The notes under the pieces were generated by a model. That model worked only from the letters and a program-made list of their open reading frames with translations, was not told the origin of the DNA and searched no databases. Positions 1 through 24,336 of a DNA stretch of 64,000 nucleotides are shown here, one piece after another. The DNA is from Thermaceae bacterium (lineage in GTDB: Bacteria; Deinococcota; Deinococci; Deinococcales; Marinithermaceae): the NCBI GenBank assembly GCA_027067955.1, contig JAMOUW010000045.1:62001-126000 (forward strand), written 5' to 3'. A program made the position numbers and the translations under genes. The stretch's first letter is position 1, and every line of letters starts with the position of its first letter.

Positions 1-1359
1 GCTGATCAGCTTCTTGTAGCTGATATAGGCCCAGCCGGGGCGCTGGTAGTTACGGCAGGACACGTGCCCGCCCCCGTGGTTGGCCACCAATCGCTCCCGC
101 TCGCGCTTTTCCAGGTCGTAGGCCCAAACTCCGGAGGCGGCCTCGCCGGATTCGGGATCGTAATGGCCGTAAGCCCCGGGGCCGCCGTTTTCGAACTGAA
201 CATAGATGTCCCGTCTGCCGTCGGCAGAAACGCAGATGTCGCCGTGGTTGGCCTTGTAGGCTAGCGTGTAGAGGTACTTCAGGTCGCGGTCGTACACCTC
301 GACCACCTTCTTACTGTCGGTGGCCACGCCGCTGCGCATGTCCGCGTATTTGTGTACCAGCACATACTTTCCGGTGGGGGTTATGCTCGCCCAGTCGAGC
401 TTGTCGTTCTTGTAGGTCTTGGTCAGGTAAAGCCTGTGCTCGGGCCCGTCAAAATCCTTGATGACGGCCCGGTCATGCTCCAGGTCGTACAGGATGAGGG
501 TGGCTATCTCGCTGGTGGAGTTTTCCTCGCGACGGCCGGTGAGGATGATGTAACGATCTTGGAAGTCCAGATTGCCCTCGTATTCCCCCAGCGTCATTCG
601 TTCGTACGCGCCGGGAATTTCGTAAAGTATCGTAATCTTGCCAGTTTCCACATCCTCGCGGGCCACGCAGTAATGACCCCTGTCCCCGCAGCGCTCGAGG
701 CCGATGCGCATATGCGGGTCGCTATGTGACCAGCGTTTGTACGAACTTACCCGGCGGACGCGCTCGAAATTATCCGCACGCACCAACCAGCGCCCGCCCA
801 GCACCAGCAACGTCTGGTCGCTGTTCCAGGCCTGGTCTTTGGGGTAATGGTGCACCGGGCTCTTCTCCCCATCCTTGACGACCGTTTTTTCGGCGTCGGT
901 GACACGGGTGATACGGGTAGCGAATTTCCCCCCCTCGTTTACCCACTCTCCCGGCTCCGGGCGGGGAACTGAGGTGTCGCCCTCGTATCCTTCGGTCTCC
1001 AGGTCCCCGTCCACGGTTAGCGTATCCGGGGGATAACGCAACCGGGGATCGGCGCGCACCAGCACGCGTCTCTCCACTCTGGCCCGATTGCCGCTGCGGT
1101 CGCTGGCGGTGTATTCGCGCCGGTACTCGCCCGCCAACCCCGTGTTCACCTCGCCGCTCGCCGTCACCGGAACCTCGCCGTCCCGATCGTCGATCGCATA
1201 AGCCCCCGGCTCCCGGTACGCCGCGCCCAGCACCACGGTCATCGGGTTATCGCCCTTCAAAACTATCTTCGGAGGGGTAACGTCAGCCCCGCTCCCCGAT
1301 CCCGCACAGGCCGCCAGCAACAGTGGCGCAAGCGACCATCTCAAAAGACGCCCGAACAT
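1..1359 (-). CDS. Lipoprotein with N-terminal DUF5011-like Ig domain (3' end truncated by window edge)
   Basis: Read by hand: ATG at 1357-1359 (minus), translation MFGRLLRWSLAPLLLAACAGSGSGADVTPPKIVLKGDNPMTVVLGAAYREPGAYAIDDRDG..., open through position 1 (453 codons). Lipobox LLAAC. Absent from the ORF track because it runs off the edge. Confidence 0.85.
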   Translation of the reverse strand, partial: MFGRLLRWSLAPLLLAACAGSGSGADVTPPKIVLKGDNPMTVVLGAAYREPGAYAIDDRDGEVPVTASGEVNTGLAGEYRREYTASDRSGNRARVERRVLVRADPRLRYPPDTLTVDGDLETEGYEGDTSVPRPEPGEWVNEGGKFATRITRVTDAEKTVVKDGEKSPVHHYPKDQAWNSDQTLLVLGGRWLVRADNFERVRRVSSYKRWSHSDPHMRIGLERCGDRGHYCVAREDVETGKITILYEIPGAYERMTLGEYEGNLDFQDRYIILTGRREENSTSEIATLILYDLEHDRAVIKDFDGPEHRLYLTKTYKNDKLDWASITPTGKYVLVHKYADMRSGVATDSKKVVEVYDRDLKYLYTLAYKANHGDICVSADGRRDIYVQFENGGPGAYGHYDPESGEAASGVWAYDLEKRERERLVANHGGGHVSCRNYQRPGWAYISYKKLIS

Positions 1360-5088: not shown

Positions 5089-6125
5089 CGTTTCCCCCCG
5101 AGCAGCAACACCCCGGCCACCATGACATAGAGAAAATCGGGGCCCCAGGCGGCAATCCAGGGCGCAAGCACCCCCTGCTCGCCCATGATCCGAAACACGC
5201 TCCAGGTGGCGTAGTAGAAGAAGGTAAGCGTCACCACGCCCACCATCCCCAGACTGCGGCTCCCGCCCAGCATCCAAAAAGCCAGCGCCACCGCGAAGAT
5301 CGCGAAAGCCACGCTGGCCGCAGGCTCGGCCCACTTCCGCCAGTAGGCGGTAGCCTCGGCATAGTAGGGACGGCCCATCTTCTTGTTCTCCACGATGCGC
5401 CGGCGCAGCTCGGCCAGCGACAGGTCGGACGGCTTCACCGGCGGGCGCACCGCCAGATCCTCCAGCGGCAAAATGCCCCGTTCGAATTCGGCTATCGTGC
5501 GCGGCCTGGAATCGTCAAAGGTGACGCGCATGCCGCCGTCGAGCACCAGCCGCCCCGGCTCGAAGCGCCCGCGTTTGGCGGTCAGCACCTCCTGCGTCGA
5601 TACCACCCGCACCTCGCTGAAATCCTGACCCTCTACCTGACCCACGTAGATGGTGCGCCCGTAGGCGTCGCGGAAAAAGGTTCCCGGCTGCAGGAGCGCG
5701 CGGGGTTTGGCCAGGATGGCCCGCCGCAGCACCTGATTGGCCTTTTGCAGCTCGCTAGGCACCCAGCTTTCCCCGGCAACGAAACCTGCCAGCGCCAGGA
5801 GCGCACCGAAACCAACGAGCACCGCCAGCACCCGCTCCCGGGGAATCCCCGAGGCCAGCAACACCTTGAGCTCCGAATCCTCGGCCATGCGGCTGAGCGC
5901 AAGCAGCAGAGAAAACAGGTAGGCTATCGGCAATCCCCGCACCAGCGCCTCGGGCACCCGGTGCGCCAGATACTGTCCGATCGAGAGGGGATCGGCCCCG
6001 CGCGCCAGCAGCGGAGCGAGAACTTCGAAGAGAACGCCGCCCAGGAGCAGGAGAACCACCACCGCCAGGCCCCCGAGCAGATACGAGCCCACTTCACGCA
6101 GAAGATAACGGCCCAGGGTGTTCAT
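5085..6125 (-). CDS. LptF/LptG family permease (YjgP/YjgQ)
   Basis: 346 aa, multi-TM MNTLGRYLLREVGSYLLGGLAVVVLLLLGG; paired with a second family member. Confidence 0.85.
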   Translation of the reverse strand: MNTLGRYLLREVGSYLLGGLAVVVLLLLGGVLFEVLAPLLARGADPLSIGQYLAHRVPEALVRGLPIAYLFSLLLALSRMAEDSELKVLLASGIPRERVLAVLVGFGALLALAGFVAGESWVPSELQKANQVLRRAILAKPRALLQPGTFFRDAYGRTIYVGQVEGQDFSEVRVVSTQEVLTAKRGRFEPGRLVLDGGMRVTFDDSRPRTIAEFERGILPLEDLAVRPPVKPSDLSLAELRRRIVENKKMGRPYYAEATAYWRKWAEPAASVAFAIFAVALAFWMLGGSRSLGMVGVVTLTFFYYATWSVFRIMGEQGVLAPWIAAWGPDFLYVMVAGVLLLGGKR

Positions 6126-7129
6126 ACGAGCCTCCGCGTGCCCAGAATCGCCAGCGCGAAGTAAACCACGTCGGCCAGCCAGGCCCCGTAAGGACCTATG
6201 ACCGAATAGTTGCTAAGCTGTGCCGCCAGCGTCCACAGCACGTAGTAACCGAAGATCAGCAGCACGACCGCCACGAACGCCCAGGCCGCCTCGCGCAGGG
6301 AAAGCCCGATGACCGCCGCCAACCAGGCAAGGGCTATCACCCCCACCGCGTCGGCGTGGCGCCGCTGCAGGGGGAAGCGCGCCGACGGATCCACCCGCGC
6401 CAGCTCGCGCAGCTCCTGCATCGGCAGCGATTCGTACGTGGTCTTCTTCTCGACGAAACGCGAGGGGAAGGGAAGCGGCACCTTTTCCCAAAACTCGGGA
6501 CGCTTCCCCGGAGCCGTCTTCCAGGCGCCCATGAGCACCCAGTTTGCATCTTTCCAGACCCCTTCCCTGGCGCTCCATACCGTGCCGTCCGGCGTTATCA
6601 CGCGCACATCGCGCAGGTTGCCGCTGCCGTCCCCGGTCGGGATGACGCGGCGGGCAAAGTACACCCCCAATCCCTGCGGTGCGTAGGAGGCATTGGAAAT
6701 CACGCCGCTGGGCGCGTTGCCGTAGTAGATCTCGTAAACGAGGTCGTTATAGCGATCGTTGGCTTCGGGCTTTATCCAACCCGCGTTGATCCAGGCTATG
6801 GCGGCTACGAACGTGGCCAGACCCAGCACCGGAGCAAGCAGGCGGATAGGAGCAATACCTGCGGCAAATACCGCCTTCAATTCGGAGTCGCGAATCCAGC
6901 GCGCCAGCGCCACCAGGACCGCAAAGACCAGGCCAAGCGGTAGCGCCACCCCCAGGGTGTAGGGCATACGGTACAGCACGAGCGCGCCGATGTCGGTCCA
7001 GCTCGTACTGCGGCTGAGGAACACCCCCGAGAGGGACGAGAGCAGGTCCGTGGTCACCAACCCGATGAAGAGCAGGGTTCCCAGCAGATAGGGCGTCAGG
7101 ATTTCGCGCAAAAGATAGCGCTTGAGCAC
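6122..7129 (-). CDS. LptF/LptG family permease (YjgP/YjgQ)
   Basis: 335 aa, MLKRYLLREILTPYLLGTLLFIGLVTTDLL; overlaps the next permease by 4 nt. Confidence 0.85.
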   Translation of the reverse strand: MLKRYLLREILTPYLLGTLLFIGLVTTDLLSSLSGVFLSRSTSWTDIGALVLYRMPYTLGVALPLGLVFAVLVALARWIRDSELKAVFAAGIAPIRLLAPVLGLATFVAAIAWINAGWIKPEANDRYNDLVYEIYYGNAPSGVISNASYAPQGLGVYFARRVIPTGDGSGNLRDVRVITPDGTVWSAREGVWKDANWVLMGAWKTAPGKRPEFWEKVPLPFPSRFVEKKTTYESLPMQELRELARVDPSARFPLQRRHADAVGVIALAWLAAVIGLSLREAAWAFVAVVLLIFGYYVLWTLAAQLSNYSVIGPYGAWLADVVYFALAILGTRRLV

Positions 7130-7586: not shown

Positions 7587-8942
7587 CTAATTGAGCAGGC
7601 GGCCTTTGAGTACCAGCTCGCGGGCCCGGGCGGCGTAGCCGCGCAGGGTCTCGCGCCATTCGTCACCGGCCGCCAGGTAAGATAGCAGCCGTTCGGCCAG
7701 TTCCGCCACCTCACCGGGGTTGGGGTAGCCCGACTGGGCGAGAACGTCCACTATCATCTCGTGGGCAGTCACCCAGTCGTGGTCTCCCTCACGCGCCGCG
7801 GCCGCCGCGGCGCGGTAATGGACCAGCGCTTCGTCCCAGGCGCCCACGTCGTAGGCCCTGTTGCCCAAAATCAGATGTGCCGCGGGGACGGTCGCCAGCT
7901 CGAGCGCCTTGCGGGCGGCTTCGTCCGCGGCAGGCCCGTCCCCTAACCTGTAATACACCTCGGAAAGATCGGCCTGAGCCTGCGCCCGATGCGGATAGGT
8001 CGTGTCGCGCAGCACCTTGCGCAGGAGTGCTCCCGCCCGGATCAGGTCTCCCTGATCGAGTTCGAAGATCCCCCACTCGTGCCATACGTAGGGCATATCC
8101 GCCTCGCCGGCCCGGCTCTCGGCATCCCGGTAGGCGGCCCGCGCCGCTTCCACGCGCCCGAAACGCTGGTGCACCTGGGCGCGCACCAGCGCCGTGCCGT
8201 GGCTCAGTCCTGCGCCCGCAGCCTCCAGCCCCTCAGCCTGCACTATCTCCTCGGCAGCGCGCTCCGGGTTGCCCATGACGAGTTCGGTGCGCGCGCTGAG
8301 ATAGTGAAAGGTGGCGCGGTCGGAAAGCTCGCCTTCGGAAAGCAGGTTCGCCGCCTCCGCCAGACGCACGCGGGCACGACCGGGATTCTCGACCTCGAGC
8401 CACAGGGCGGCGGCGTCCAGCAGGCTCCAGAGGCGCTCCTTACCCAGAGATTCCAGCGATGCCCGCTCGTGCGCCTCGGCTGCGTCAGCGAACCTCCCCT
8501 CCGATTCGTGTATTCTTCCCAGCAGCGCCCAGGCGCGCGCCGCCAAGAACTCGGGCAGCTCGTTGGGATCGGGTAGCACCGCCTGCGCCGCCTGCAACTC
8601 CCCCTGATAGGCGAGCCCCTGGGCCACGTGGTACGCATCCCGCGGATCCCGGGCCGGCGGCGGCCCGCTCCGGTCCCCCCGAAGCGCCGCCAGCTCGAAA
8701 GCAAGCGCCCGGTAACGTTCTTCTCGAACCACGCGCGCATTACGAGCGCGCGCCCGCTCGAGCGCCTTCTGCCATGCCCCCGCCTCGGCCTCTCCGTAGA
8801 GGCTGTAGAACTCAGCTAGGTCAAGCAGCGCCTCCACTATGCTGGCGGTGGTGGCAAAGCGGCGCTCGGCCGCGGCAAGGAGGGCGTCGTGGGCGCTATC
8901 GTACTCGCCCAGATGCAACCATTCCTCGATACGAGGCTTCAC
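7587..8942 (-). CDS. TPR-repeat protein, unknown function
   Basis: Helical repeats (e.g. WHEWGIFELDQGDLIRAGALLRKVLRDTTYPHRAQAQADLSEVYYRLGDGPAADEAARKALELA). GTG start at 8940-8942 (VKPRIEEWLHLGEYD); the longer ORF is antisense to ftsH and rejected. Confidence 0.75.
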   Translation of the reverse strand: MKPRIEEWLHLGEYDSAHDALLAAAERRFATTASIVEALLDLAEFYSLYGEAEAGAWQKALERARARNARVVREERYRALAFELAALRGDRSGPPPARDPRDAYHVAQGLAYQGELQAAQAVLPDPNELPEFLAARAWALLGRIHESEGRFADAAEAHERASLESLGKERLWSLLDAAALWLEVENPGRARVRLAEAANLLSEGELSDRATFHYLSARTELVMGNPERAAEEIVQAEGLEAAGAGLSHGTALVRAQVHQRFGRVEAARAAYRDAESRAGEADMPYVWHEWGIFELDQGDLIRAGALLRKVLRDTTYPHRAQAQADLSEVYYRLGDGPAADEAARKALELATVPAAHLILGNRAYDVGAWDEALVHYRAAAAAAREGDHDWVTAHEMIVDVLAQSGYPNPGEVAELAERLLSYLAAGDEWRETLRGYAARARELVLKGRLLN

Positions 8943-9044
8943 GCTCAAAGCATAGCATGCGGATATCAAGCCCCCTCGGGACGTATCTTCGTAATAAACT
9001 GTTAGGGCTGAAGGGGCGCGGTGCGCCCGGAAGCGGAGGTAGAT

Positions 9045-10898
9045 TTGCCAAACCGGATCAACCCCTGGACGGTCGTCCTGCTCCTTATCTTTGGACTCTG
9101 GCTTTATTCGCTGATGGGCAGCACGGGGGCCGCCCCGTCGATCAGCTACGACACCTTCGTTCGCTTCGTAGCCGAAAACAAAGTAAGCAAAGCGCTCATC
9201 GCCGAAGACCGCATCACCGGTGAGTTCAAGAGTCCGGAACGGGTAACCAGCAAAGACAAGTTCATCACTACCAAACGCTTTCAGACCACGCCGCCGATAC
9301 CACAGGTTCCCGATCTGGATCTGCCGGCGTTGCTCAAGAAGCACAACGTAGAGTTCAGCTTCAAAACGACGTCCCCCTGGCTGCTGATCATCGCCAACTT
9401 CCTGCCGGTGCTGCTGCTGGTGGGGTTCTTCTGGTTCTTCTTTATGCGGGGGCCCGCAGGCGGCGGGGGCGGGGGCGTCATGCAGTTCGGCCAGTCGCGG
9501 GCCCGCATGTACGGCAAGGAAAGGCAGGTTTCCACCACCTTCAAGGACGTGGCCGGCCACGAAGAGGCCAAGCGCGAGCTCGTGGAGGTGGTCGATTTTC
9601 TCAAGCACCCGCAGAAATACCTGGCCATCGGGGCCGAGATTCCCAAGGGGGTGTTGCTGGTGGGGCCGCCGGGTACCGGCAAGACGCTGCTGGCGCGGGC
9701 CGTCGCCGGCGAAGCGGGGGTGCCCTTCTTTTCGGTGAGCGCCAGCGAGTTCATGGAGATGTTCGTGGGCGTCGGTGCCAGCCGCGTACGCACGCTCTTC
9801 GACGAGGCGCGCAAGAACGCCCCGGCGATCATCTTCATCGACGAAATAGACTCCATCGGCCGCAAGCGCGGAGCGGGCATCGGCGGCGGTCACGACGAGC
9901 GCGAACAGACACTCAACCAGATCCTGGCCGAGATGGACGGCTTTGAAAAAGACACCTCGGTCATCGTCATGGCGGCCACCAACCGCCCCGACATCCTCGA
10001 CCCCGCCCTCCTGCGCCCCGGCCGCTTCGACCGCAAGGTGGTGGTGGGGCTGCCCAGCCTGGAGGAGCGCAAAGAGATCCTCAGGGTGCACATGCGCGGC
10101 AAGCCCGTGGCCGACGACGTGGACGTCGCGGAGCTGGCGCAGATGACGCCCGGGTTCAGCGGCGCCGACCTGAAAAACCTGGTAAACGAAGCCGCGCTGC
10201 AGGCGGCGCGCGAAAACAGCGAGCGCATCCACAGGCAGCACTTCCTCACCGCGCTCGACAAGATCGTACTGGGGCTCGAGCGCGGCTCACTAAAACTATC
10301 GGACAAAGAAAAGCGCGCCATCGCTTATCACGAGGCCGGCCACGCAGTGGTCAGCGAGGTGCTGCCCGAAGCCGACAAAACCCAGAAGGTGTCGATCGTA
10401 CCCCGAGGCATGGCGCTGGGCGTGACCTGGCACCAGCCGGAGGAACGGGTGCTCGTTTCCTACGAACACCTGATGGACGAGCTTTCGGTGCTCATGGGCG
10501 GGCGGGCGGCCGAGGAAATCTTCACCGGCACCATAACCACCGGGGCCGCGGACGACTTCAAGCGGGCAACCGAAACCGCCAAGCGGATGGTGCTCGAGTG
10601 GGGCATGGGCGACCACTTCAAGCACATCGCCTGGGACGCGGGCATGGGTCCGGTGTTCCTGGGCGAGGAGATAGCGCGCCGCAAGGACTTTTCCGAGCGC
10701 ACCGCCGAGCTGGTGGACGAAGACGTACGCAAAATCCTCGACGCCGCCTACGCGCGTACCCGCGGAATACTCAACGAACACGACGCCGCGATGCACGCGA
10801 TCGCCGCCGAACTGCTGGAAAAAGAAACCATCCCCGGCGACCGGGTGCGCGAACTCCTGAAGAGCGAACCGCCCGCCAGCGAAGCCGCCGAAGCCTGA
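9045..10898 (+). CDS. ftsH: ATP-dependent zinc metalloprotease FtsH
   Basis: Walker A GPPGTGKT, Walker [17 protein letters not shown] zinc motif; TTG start at 9045 preceded by GGAGGT. Confidence 0.95.
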
Positions 10899-20977: not shown

Positions 20978-21448
20978 TCAGCGCCCCTCTATAAGAATCG
21001 TCTCTTGCACGTGCAGGCCCTTCTCGAGCACGTGACGCGACCAGAACTTGGCCTCTTCCAGGTCGTGGTCGCGATAGTTGCCGCACTCCAGCGGGTTGGC
21101 CGCCGGCACCGGCCCTTCGTGGGCCACGATGTCGGCCAGAGCCTTAGCGAAGGCGTCCATGACCGCCTCGGCCTCCGGCTCGCCGATGATGACCGCGTAG
21201 AACCCGGTGCGGCAGCCCATCGGGCTCACGTCCACGATGCCCTCCAGGTGGTCGCGCATCTTCATGGCGAGCAGGTGCTCGAAGGTGTGCATCGCCCCGG
21301 TGCCAATGACCTCGCGGTTGGGCTGACCCACCCGCAGGTCCCACTTGCTGATCACCTCCCCACCGGGGGTGTATTTAAGGTCGGCCAGGCGCACATACGG
21401 CGCCTTAACTTTGGTGTGGTCTAAGTCGAAAGAGGCAACCTTGGCCAT
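20978..21448 (-). CDS. luxS: S-ribosylhomocysteine lyase LuxS
   Basis: MAKVASFDLDHTKVKAPYVR; HTFEHLLA zinc motif; MGCRTGFY; ECGNYRDHDL. Confidence 0.95.
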   Translation of the reverse strand: MAKVASFDLDHTKVKAPYVRLADLKYTPGGEVISKWDLRVGQPNREVIGTGAMHTFEHLLAMKMRDHLEGIVDVSPMGCRTGFYAVIIGEPEAEAVMDAFAKALADIVAHEGPVPAANPLECGNYRDHDLEEAKFWSRHVLEKGLHVQETILIEGR

Positions 21449-21454
21449 GGGTTT

Positions 21455-21460
21455 ATTGTA
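21455..21460 (-). promoter_or_regulatory. -10 box of luxS, leaderless arrangement
   Basis: Minus strand TACAAT followed by 6 nt (AAACCC) then ATG. Confidence 0.5.
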
Positions 21461-21591
21461 GTGGCGGTTTGAGTTTGCGATACACAAACGAAATCGCCGA
21501 CGGCCCATAAAGGACCACCTGGCCGCACCCGACCTTTGCCCAACTGCCGCCTATTCTCACGACAACTAAAATCGCCAGAAAACAATCCGCA

Positions 21592-22230
21592 TTATTCGGC
21601 CCTGACTATTCTCGCCAGTTCCTCAAGCTCCTCCCAGGTCAGGCCGTCCTTGTATAGCCCGTTGACGAGCCACAACCCGCTTTCTCGTATCTTCTTCTTG
21701 GGCGAAAACAAACCCAACCATTCAGGAGACGGTCCGCATTCGTCACACCACGAAACCGTAGAAATGATTTTTTCCTCCCACTTCAATCGCGTGTCTTTGT
21801 CGTTTACTTCAAATACTACAAACGTAAAGTTTTGCTGGATGATCGCTGTTACTTTCTCTTCGGTCTCGCGCAGTTTCTTCTCGTCAAGCAGCGGCAAATA
21901 CTGCTCTTTGGCCTTTTTAGACGTCAGGTCCCATTCCCATTGTTCCAAAAACGGATCGTTATCCCGGTACAAAATAGCTCGACCAATGTTCTTGCGGAAA
22001 ATACTTCGGTCTTTGTTTTCGTTCACGAAGTGCTGCTTCAAGCGGGAACGGAGCTGGTTGTCACCCTTATGCGTTCCCACCCTTACTATCCTATCGACCT
22101 CGTGAGCACGCTCCCCCTCTTCAAAAAGAACGTAAATGCCGTTCCGTGGAATCTCCACATCATCAAACGGAAACCTATGGCGCAGCAAACTATTGAATAA
22201 GTGGTGTAGTTGGTGACAAATCTCACTCAC
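21592..22230 (-). CDS. GIY-YIG-like nuclease domain protein
   Basis: GIYVLFEEGERAHEVDRIVRVGTHKGDNQLRSRLKQHF plus downstream RLKWEEKIISTV (candidate catalytic Glu). Confidence 0.6.
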   Translation of the reverse strand: MSEICHQLHHLFNSLLRHRFPFDDVEIPRNGIYVLFEEGERAHEVDRIVRVGTHKGDNQLRSRLKQHFVNENKDRSIFRKNIGRAILYRDNDPFLEQWEWDLTSKKAKEQYLPLLDEKKLRETEEKVTAIIQQNFTFVVFEVNDKDTRLKWEEKIISTVSWCDECGPSPEWLGLFSPKKKIRESGLWLVNGLYKDGLTWEELEELARIVRAE

Positions 22231-22642
22231 GCGCCGCCTTCTCCTTCAAAAACTGTAGTTGTTGACCTATTTTCAACCCCTCAAGCGGCACCTCATAAGA
22301 CCTCAAGTAAGGTAATAAATATTGACGGTACTTCTGCCCGGCTAATATCACGAAGTGGTCGTTTTCTAAGTCGGCATTTTCCCGCAGCTGCGAAACCACC
22401 CTAGCCGCCCACTCCTTCCTTTCGCTGGCGGACATTTCGTTGAGCGTGACGTCATAAGGATCGATTTCTTCATCCAAATGCACCAGCCCGTGCTTTGCCG
22501 ACAAAACAAAGATTTTTTGGGGCGAAAATTGCTGGGCGTACTTTAAGTTCATCCGGAATAGCGGACTTGTATACAAATCCCTGGCTTTTGCTCTATACGG
22601 CAGCTTCTTGCTTACGCACGAGATAAGAACTATTTTGTTCAC
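22223..22642 (-). CDS. DUF6884-like protein
   Basis: MNKIVLISCVSKKLPYRAKARDLYTSPLFRMNLKYAQ...FVLSAKHGLVHLDEEIDPYDVTL; overlaps the GIY-YIG-like gene by 8 nt. Confidence 0.65.
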   Translation of the reverse strand: MNKIVLISCVSKKLPYRAKARDLYTSPLFRMNLKYAQQFSPQKIFVLSAKHGLVHLDEEIDPYDVTLNEMSASERKEWAARVVSQLRENADLENDHFVILAGQKYRQYLLPYLRSYEVPLEGLKIGQQLQFLKEKAARE

Positions 22643-22907
22643 CCGACTCCCCCTTTAGTCCTAGCCTAGGCGACGGCAACCGGCTGCCAGCATATTGCGC
22701 TTGCTCTTACGCGAAGCTCAAGCCTCTTCCGACGCCCAGTTCGCCTTCTTAGACGTCTTTTATCGGTAGTATACCCCGCTGCTAAATAGCGTGTCAGTAT
22801 TCGCCCTTAGCACCCTATTAAGACTGGCAAACTGGGTAGAAAACGACTTTTCCAACCAAAGCCGTTTGGCCAACTCAGCCTGGCAAGCTACGAGATTGTT
22901 TTGCCGT

Positions 22908-23690
22908 CTATTTCACCAACACATGGAACGACTCTTCGGGGAACACCACCGAAACCTTACTCCCCGGCAGTAGCGCCTCGTCTTCTTTGGAGTCGTAAAC
23001 GACGACCGAGATTCGCTCGCCCTGAATGTCTATCTCGTACTCCATCGTCGCCCCCAGATAAACGCCGTGGATTACCTCGCCCTCAAAGCCCTGACGGTCA
23101 GCGGAGGCGTTTAGCCGCACGGTTTCGGGGCGCACCACCAGCAGAACTTCGCGGCCCGGGGTCAGGCCGGCCGCCGGGTTGGGCACCGAAACAGTCTTGT
23201 CAAAAACCTTGACCACGGCGTGGCTGTCGTGGCGCTCCGCCACCTGGCCTTCGATAAAGTTGGCCCGGCCGATAAAGTCGGCCACGAAAACCGAGGCCGG
23301 CCGCCGGTATATTTCGGTGGGCGACCCGATCTGCTCAATCCGACCGTCGTTCATAACAGCAATCCGGTCGGAAAGGCTCATTGCTTCCGCCTGGTCGTGG
23401 GTAACGTAAACGGTGGTAATCCCCAGCCGCTTTTGCAGGCTCCGTATCTCCAACCGCATCTGCTCGCGCAGTTTGGCGTCAAGGTTCGAAAGGGGCTCGT
23501 CGAAGAGCAGCACCTGCGGTTCCATTACCAGCGCCCGCGCCAGGGCTACGCGCTGCTGCTGTCCGCCCGATAGCTGGTGCGGCTTTCTGTCACCCATTCC
23601 TTCCAGGCCCATCATGGCCATTACCTTTTCGGTCCGCTCCTTGATCTAGCGCTTGCTCAGCTTCTGCACTTCCAGGCCGTAGGTGATGCT
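22908..23690 (-). pseudogene. Decayed ABC-transporter ATP-binding protein (sugar/polyamine/iron type)
   Basis: [53 protein letters not shown] present; Walker A half absent; in-frame TAG at 23646-23648 within [41 protein letters not shown]. Confidence 0.85.
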
Positions 23691-23726: not shown

Positions 23727-23915
23727 CTACTGTTCCTTGACGCCTAGAAGCTCGTCCAGCTCTCTTCGAACGGCCTCTCCATCGGCCAGGACTCCGGGCG
23801 CAAAATCGTGGGACTCCCAGAATGTGGCTTCCTCAGCACGAGATCGGAATCGACGGGGGATTTCTCGGGCACCTTTAATCAGCTTGCGCTTCAAGCCGCG
23901 CAAATTTGCAGGCAT
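23727..23915 (-). CDS. CopG-like antitoxin (orphan)
   Basis: MPANLRGLKRKLIKGAREIPRRFRSRAEEATFWESHDFAPGVLADGEAVRRELDELLGVKEQ; SD GGAGGTG 8 nt upstream of ATG. Confidence 0.6.
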   Translation of the reverse strand: MPANLRGLKRKLIKGAREIPRRFRSRAEEATFWESHDFAPGVLADGEAVRRELDELLGVKEQ

Positions 23916-24060
23916 TTTTGCCATCACCTCCATTTTACCACTCACCATCGTTTCCTGCGGCATAGCCTGCAACCGGCCTCGGAGCGCTCCCTGCGCGCAT
24001 GCGGGAATAGAACAAATACGGGCAAAAGAAGATTTGCCTCGATATTTCTGGTATTGAACC

Positions 24061-24336
24061 CTAAAGCTTGTCGATGGCCCTGTCAATCTCTTCAAGCAAC
24101 AGGGTGGCGTGAACGCTCAGGTGGGCGATACTGCCGTAAAGCTCACCCTCAATATCGGCACGGCCGGGGTCATTTTCCGGCATTGATTTTAGCCTGCGCA
24201 CCAAGCTGACGTAGATCTTCGCCTCGGCCGCAAGCTCCTCGATGAGAATGTTTTTCTCTACTCCGAGCGTGCTATCGATAGCTACCACTTTTTTGCCTAC
24301 GGCCGCTCCGCGTGTCTTTCGAACAGTCTTGGCCAT
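24061..24336 (-). CDS. Hypothetical small protein
   Basis: 91 aa with strong SD AAGGAGGTCCAAACC-ATG. Confidence 0.6.
   Translation of the reverse strand: MAKTVRKTRGAAVGKKVVAIDSTLGVEKNILIEELAAEAKIYVSLVRRLKSMPENDPGRADIEGELYGSIAHLSVHATLLLEEIDRAIDKL

Follow-up and report, generated by a model that had tools for sequence, protein, structure and literature searches.

A PDC-M57 gene pair at a luxS-side defence hotspot encodes a DUF6884 protein and a putative GIY-YIG nuclease and may form a base-sensing defence module

The analysed window, a stretch of 64,000 nucleotides from a Thermaceae bacterium, contains two small overlapping genes on the minus strand, gene A followed by gene B (Table 1). In the overlap (GTGAGTGA), which was read from the sequence, the TGA stop of A falls within the start region of B (GTG). 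Both open reading frames and the 8-nt overlap were found as described in an earlier sequence-only reading of this DNA. That reading had also placed the pair beside a pseudogene and an orphan antitoxin, a description that was partly borne out. The ORF at 22908-23621 (-) encodes a MalK/UgpC-type ABC ATPase that lacks the N-terminal ~130 aa of the congener homologue (L123:1421-2515), and is likely a pseudogene fragment. The putative antitoxin ORF at 23727-24095 (-) matched CopG in Pfam only weakly (E = 0.034), and a toxin partner was not evident. An Rfam search near the pair gave no match.

Table 1. Genes, motifs and other features of the locus (nucleotide positions in the window; motif positions in amino acid residues).
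Feature	Position	Strand	Description
Gene A (PDC-M57A)	22223..22642	-	DUF6884 protein, 139 aa, GTG start, predicted YaaA-like fold
Gene B (PDC-M57B)	21592..22230	-	putative divergent GIY-YIG nuclease, 212 aa, GTG start
A/B overlap GTGAGTGA	22223..22230	-	8 nt
luxS	20978..21508	-	conserved hotspot anchor, outside the system; Pfam LuxS E = 2.4e-51
Block that is not homologous to any of five congener luxS loci	21467..22907	.	holds the pair, low GC
Protein A motifs	C9/K13; 47-52		CxxxK; LSAKHG
Protein B motifs	31-33; 49-52; R63/H67; E152		GIY; VRVG; R-x3-H; putative catalytic Glu

Both proteins gave full-length matches to PADLOC families. Protein A matched PDC-M57A with E = 3.4e-63 (profile residues 1-135 of 138), and B, adjoining A, matched PDC-M57B with E = 1.8e-100 (profile residues 1-209 of 211). 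The two families are catalogued together in PADLOC-DB 2.0.0 (2023) as one candidate defence system, PDC-M57, and the window pair is a member of this catalogued candidate kind. Because this entry already covers both genes, the earlier description of the pair as an undescribed system was rejected. A literature search for PDC-M57 found no paper and no experimental report, and most PDCs are without experimental validation according to a 2026 survey (PMC12988326).

Next to the pair lies luxS, which was present in all six genomes of the genus. In a blastn comparison of the window with five congeners, the luxS side aligned at 80-88% and the alignments ended at 21461-21468, and homology of the right flank started at about 22979, being placed elsewhere in G005. 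The GC content was 47.8% for the pair in comparison to 63.2% for the window. Because of this low GC content and its absence from the congeners, the pair looks recently gained. Other genes were found 5' of luxS in the sister species: a WYL regulator, Cas3, Cse1 and Cse2 in G002 (type I-E; L115:4508-10223), Cas3, Cas5d and Csd1 in G005 (type I-C; L118:76-4763), and a ClC channel gene in G001 and G003. The site 5' of luxS is a defence hotspot of the genus, where the immune system differs from one sister species to another. The accessory setting suggested in the sequence-only reading was borne out. CRISPR-like repeats were not detected within the hotspot of the window. In G003 one type I-E-like CRISPR repeat (GGTTCATCCCCGCATGCGCGGGGAAAACC) was observed between luxS and the ClC channel gene (L116:1299-1327), possibly as a remnant of a lost CRISPR-Cas locus.

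Protein A matched the Pfam family DUF6884 (PF21818) over its full length with E = 5.4e-51 and 172.7 bits (cut-off 30), in agreement with its earlier description as DUF6884-like. C9, K13, L47-S48-A49 and G52 were invariant in all aligned partner A proteins as well as in the stand-alone homologues. The AlphaFold2 model of A had a pLDDT of 93.3, and the best PDB match in Foldseek was E. coli YaaA (5caj, probability 1.00, TM 0.62). By its sequence and its predicted structure, A is a DUF6884 protein of the YaaA fold with intact CxxxK and LSAxxG motifs. These motifs have been described for DUF6884 by the Pfam authors, together with a positively charged cleft that is also present in YaaA (PMC11701544). 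In the same work the B. subtilis member YfjM was among the interactors of DNA lesions (abasic and ribo), and its AlphaFold3 model shows a flipped base (PMC11701544). YaaA co-purifies with dsDNA (PMC4834066).

The sequence of protein B is divergent, and its matches to Pfam GIY-YIG were sub-threshold (E 0.17-0.21; 12.3 bits vs cut-offs of 22.6 and 22.4 for PF01541 and PF20815). An alignment of the B family (17 homologues) had 15 invariant columns, among them G31 and Y33 of GIY, R50 and G52 of VRVG at the YIG position, R63 and H67, and E152. The last of these is the possible catalytic Glu that had been pointed out earlier in LKWEEKII. With hhalign the B family matched two GIY_YIG_2 members over 123 columns (E = 5e-7, probability 92%), and RLxQH and S..R..G stretches were common to B and these two proteins. 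A UvrC-like identity of B was ruled out because hhalign gave no match to a UvrC-dominated GIY-YIG set. The AlphaFold2 model of B (pLDDT 94.5, pTM 0.90) had a beta-beta-alpha-alpha...beta-alpha order, with strands 31-42 (GIY) and 45-52 (VRVG) followed by helix 60-68 (R63/H67) and more helices, and then by strand 135-141, the third, and helix 145-160, which bears E152. This is the order of elements in GIY-YIG domains. R.Eco29kI took ranks 1 and 3 in Foldseek against the PDB, which is weak as a sole line of evidence because of the E-values (0.31 and 2.2) and the low TM-score (0.27). A PDB sequence search with B gave no meaningful match. Based on the invariant residues, the profile match and the predicted fold, we assign B to the GIY-YIG nucleases, as a divergent member close to GIY_YIG_2 in which the putative catalytic residue set is intact, as its earlier naming as GIY-YIG-like had anticipated.

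The coupling of both genes that was proposed in the sequence-only reading was recovered across genomes, plasmids and viral contigs, with A adjacent or fused to B, in either order, in 25 of the 29 B loci. In most loci A was found before B, and in four it was found after B (L003, L024, L026, L046). In four others A was fused to the N terminus of B (L004, L009, L044, L048), with A being weak in L048, and in L022 the A-like gene was partial and on the opposite strand. Four of the 29 B loci were without an A match. Among these, L017 had a divergent DUF6884 gene just upstream of B and L006 a decayed one, and in L021 and L042 no DUF6884 gene was seen by B. The distances among A proteins correlated with those among B proteins in 21 pairs (Mantel r = 0.49, 0 of 10,000 permutations). 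Both the domain similarities and the co-occurrence were found, and the earlier claim was not refuted.

The association was lopsided, as A is common without B and B is rare without A. Without B, A was found on 119 plasmids and in 132 phages, and it therefore has roles outside defence pairs; a single-protein query with A against viral contigs gave no match. On the Burkholderia ambifaria plasmid pBMC401 (L126:4001-5628), an HNH endonuclease gene was observed directly after a DUF6884 gene, which may be the reader-plus-nuclease arrangement again, built with another type of nuclease. Homologues of B were rare and patchy, being present in 5 of 111 genomes of the phylum of the window and in 11 of 397 of another phylum. 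With the window protein as query, no close B homologues were found in plasmids, phages or IMG/VR; an alignment query for B found 14 viral contigs. B homologues were also present on haloarchaeal plasmids, beside DNA-metabolism genes. On two Haloarcula plasmids (L028, L031) the B homologues have no A next to them; a DUF955 or ArdC-like gene, an HNH endonuclease gene and DUF6610 genes lie nearby. In L028 a DUF6884-like gene was observed ~2 kb from the B homologue.

The neighbours of B homologues included a NB-ARC/NACHT STAND protein (L062), a Mrr_cat endonuclease (L055) and a NERD-UvrD helicase (L060), and in L057 GmrSD_N and an Eco57I-type RM enzyme were found on opposite sides of the A/B pair. 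Integrases flank some loci (L056). At E<1e-10, 62 PADLOC families were matched in 69 flanking ORFs in comparison to 11, mostly generic, in 69 control ORFs taken from other parts of these genomes, a coarse comparison with one small control sample of lengths unmatched to the flank ORFs and with related models counted more than once. By this coarse measure, restriction families and further defence families were over-represented in the flanks of homologous pairs. Judged by eye, the closest PDC-M57 relative (L005) is flanked on each side by toxin-antitoxin genes, PIN/RHH-like at 5571-6237 and BrnT/BrnA-like at 8780-9234.

A defence role of some kind, as had been suggested from the sequence, is probable for the pair; the PADLOC candidate entry, the location of homologous pairs in defence islands and the CRISPR-Cas systems at the same site all point to it. 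Our more specific proposal has about an even chance of being right. In this proposal the two genes make up a small DNA-targeting module for defence that was acquired horizontally, in which A would be the sensor of abnormal or modified bases and B would cut, like type IV restriction. Type IV enzymes that join GIY-YIG to a domain for sensing modifications are well established (CMoRE, PMC12923530; wH-GIY-YIG, PMC11037411), and because of the analogy to these enzymes A is proposed as the base reader and B as the cutter. A would bind DNA and probably flip a base into the CxxxK/LSAxxG pocket, thereby licensing or directing B, the predicted GIY-YIG endonuclease, which would cut DNA with an abnormal or modified base. 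The two proteins would presumably form a physical complex and act together against phages in the manner of a type IV (modification-dependent) restriction enzyme made of two polypeptides. Modification-dependent restriction would be a sensible reading given the kinship of A with DpdC and YaaA and the known GIY-YIG type IV enzymes. No methyltransferase gene is present within the pair.

The pair could also serve mobile elements in DNA repair or DNA metabolism. A would then recognise lesions like YfjM and B would incise nearby, as a mini excision-repair pair for which the accessory location is incidental. UvrC employs a GIY-YIG domain, and the interaction of YfjM with abasic and ribo lesions and the haloarchaeal B genes that lie on plasmids beside DNA-metabolism genes would fit such a role. 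However, B is nearer GIY_YIG_2 than UvrC, the rare and patchy distribution is typical of defence rather than repair, as are the defence-gene neighbours and the CRISPR hotspot, and we consider repair unlikely. A toxin-antitoxin or abortive infection function, with B as a toxic nuclease (of DNA or RNA) that is checked by A and released on infection, seems no more probable than repair. Two small overlapping genes would suit it, as would the BrnT/PIN-like genes beside the L005 pair. Against this, the four natural A-B fusions and the swapped order are ill-suited to a labile antitoxin, A retains putative active-site residues that are unexpected for a mere inhibitor, and B persists without A in L006, L021 and L042.

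As a narrower form of the restriction proposal, A may recognise or act on 7-deazaguanine-type or other hypermodified phage bases and B cut, so that PDC-M57 would give immunity to 7-deazaguanine-modified phages. We regard this as quite unlikely. The reader A would then come from the same family as base-making enzymes (DpdC, the phiFN37 homologue), an idea to which we give the same low credence. The best phage homologue of A, with 48% identity, was found in Fusobacterium phage phiFN37. There the DUF6884 gene stands alone, with a queuine tRNA-ribosyltransferase-type (DNA-TGT-like) gene, matching phrog_887 with E = 4e-46, on one side and a Vut_1 transporter gene annotated for queuosine precursor on the other (L032:3715-6024), and with a ParB-like gene upstream. 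These genes likely form a cassette for 7-deazaguanine DNA modification in which DUF6884 is a DpdC-like member, but it is a lead and no more because it is one cassette, seen in near-identical contigs only. A possible 7-deazaguanine link of A draws on DpdC kinship and this one phage cassette.

The same kinship can be read the other way, as a restriction-modification-like system in which A would modify a base of the host DNA and B would cut unmodified DNA. A weakly matched the PADLOC DpdC models (2.2e-6), DUF6884 was reported in DpdC with GATOR-GC (PMC11888242), and the conversion of dPreQ0 to dADG in DNA is a hydrolysis by DpdC (PMC12839542). However, no DNA transglycosylase was seen beside any examined pair, and the phrog_887 profile of the phage-type transglycosylase matched none of 16 host genomes in a search without a positive control match, so that absence is not proven. 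Because no modification gene was found, the strict restriction-modification or Dpd-type reading was downgraded and is very unlikely. A homing or mobile-element maintenance endonuclease without an immune role, which the integrases and the haloarchaeal plasmids could suggest, is extremely improbable, as the genes are not within introns or inteins, both genes are conserved together and the neighbours are defence genes.

If the proposed base sensing and cutting is true, the catalogued two-gene candidate PDC-M57 gains a concrete testable mechanism, and DUF6884, which is present on many plasmids, in phages and in B. subtilis and has no settled function, gains a testable base-reading role. The natural A-B fusions can serve directly as single-protein constructs, and at the luxS-side hotspot the pair trades places with CRISPR-Cas. 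To what was catalogued for PDC-M57 this analysis adds the fusions and the swapped gene orders, the assignment of B to GIY_YIG_2, the hotspot at which CRISPR-Cas and the pair replace each other, and the deazaguanine-type cassette in a phage.

In comparison to the PADLOC entry, which is without description or mechanism, the window pair has the same adjacent arrangement and no feature sets it apart. YfjM of B. subtilis and YaaA of E. coli share the fold and motifs of A, and have DNA-binding evidence, but no nuclease partner is described for them in the cited papers, whereas A has B. DpdC, from the Dpd system for 7-deazaguanine modification of DNA, also has a DUF6884/YaaA-related domain; it is an enzyme of ~310 aa that is encoded along with DpdA in a Dpd cluster of several genes, whereas A has 139 aa and is paired with the putative nuclease B, and the phrog_887 search of the host genomes found no DpdA. 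The GIY-YIG type II restriction enzyme R.Eco29kI was the best, though weak, PDB fold match of B, but the A/B pair is without a methyltransferase gene. The 6mA-dependent wH-GIY-YIG type IV enzymes Ahi29725I and Apa233I combine a reader with GIY-YIG, but the reader is a winged helix for 6mA and not DUF6884 (PMC11037411). CMoRE (PD-T4-3), a single-protein type IV restriction enzyme, similarly joins a GIY-YIG nuclease to a DNA-modification reader; its reader domain is without known homologues and senses 5hmC/5ghmC (PMC12923530), whereas the partner in the PDC-M57 pair is a DUF6884 protein, encoded by a separate gene or as an N-terminal fusion.
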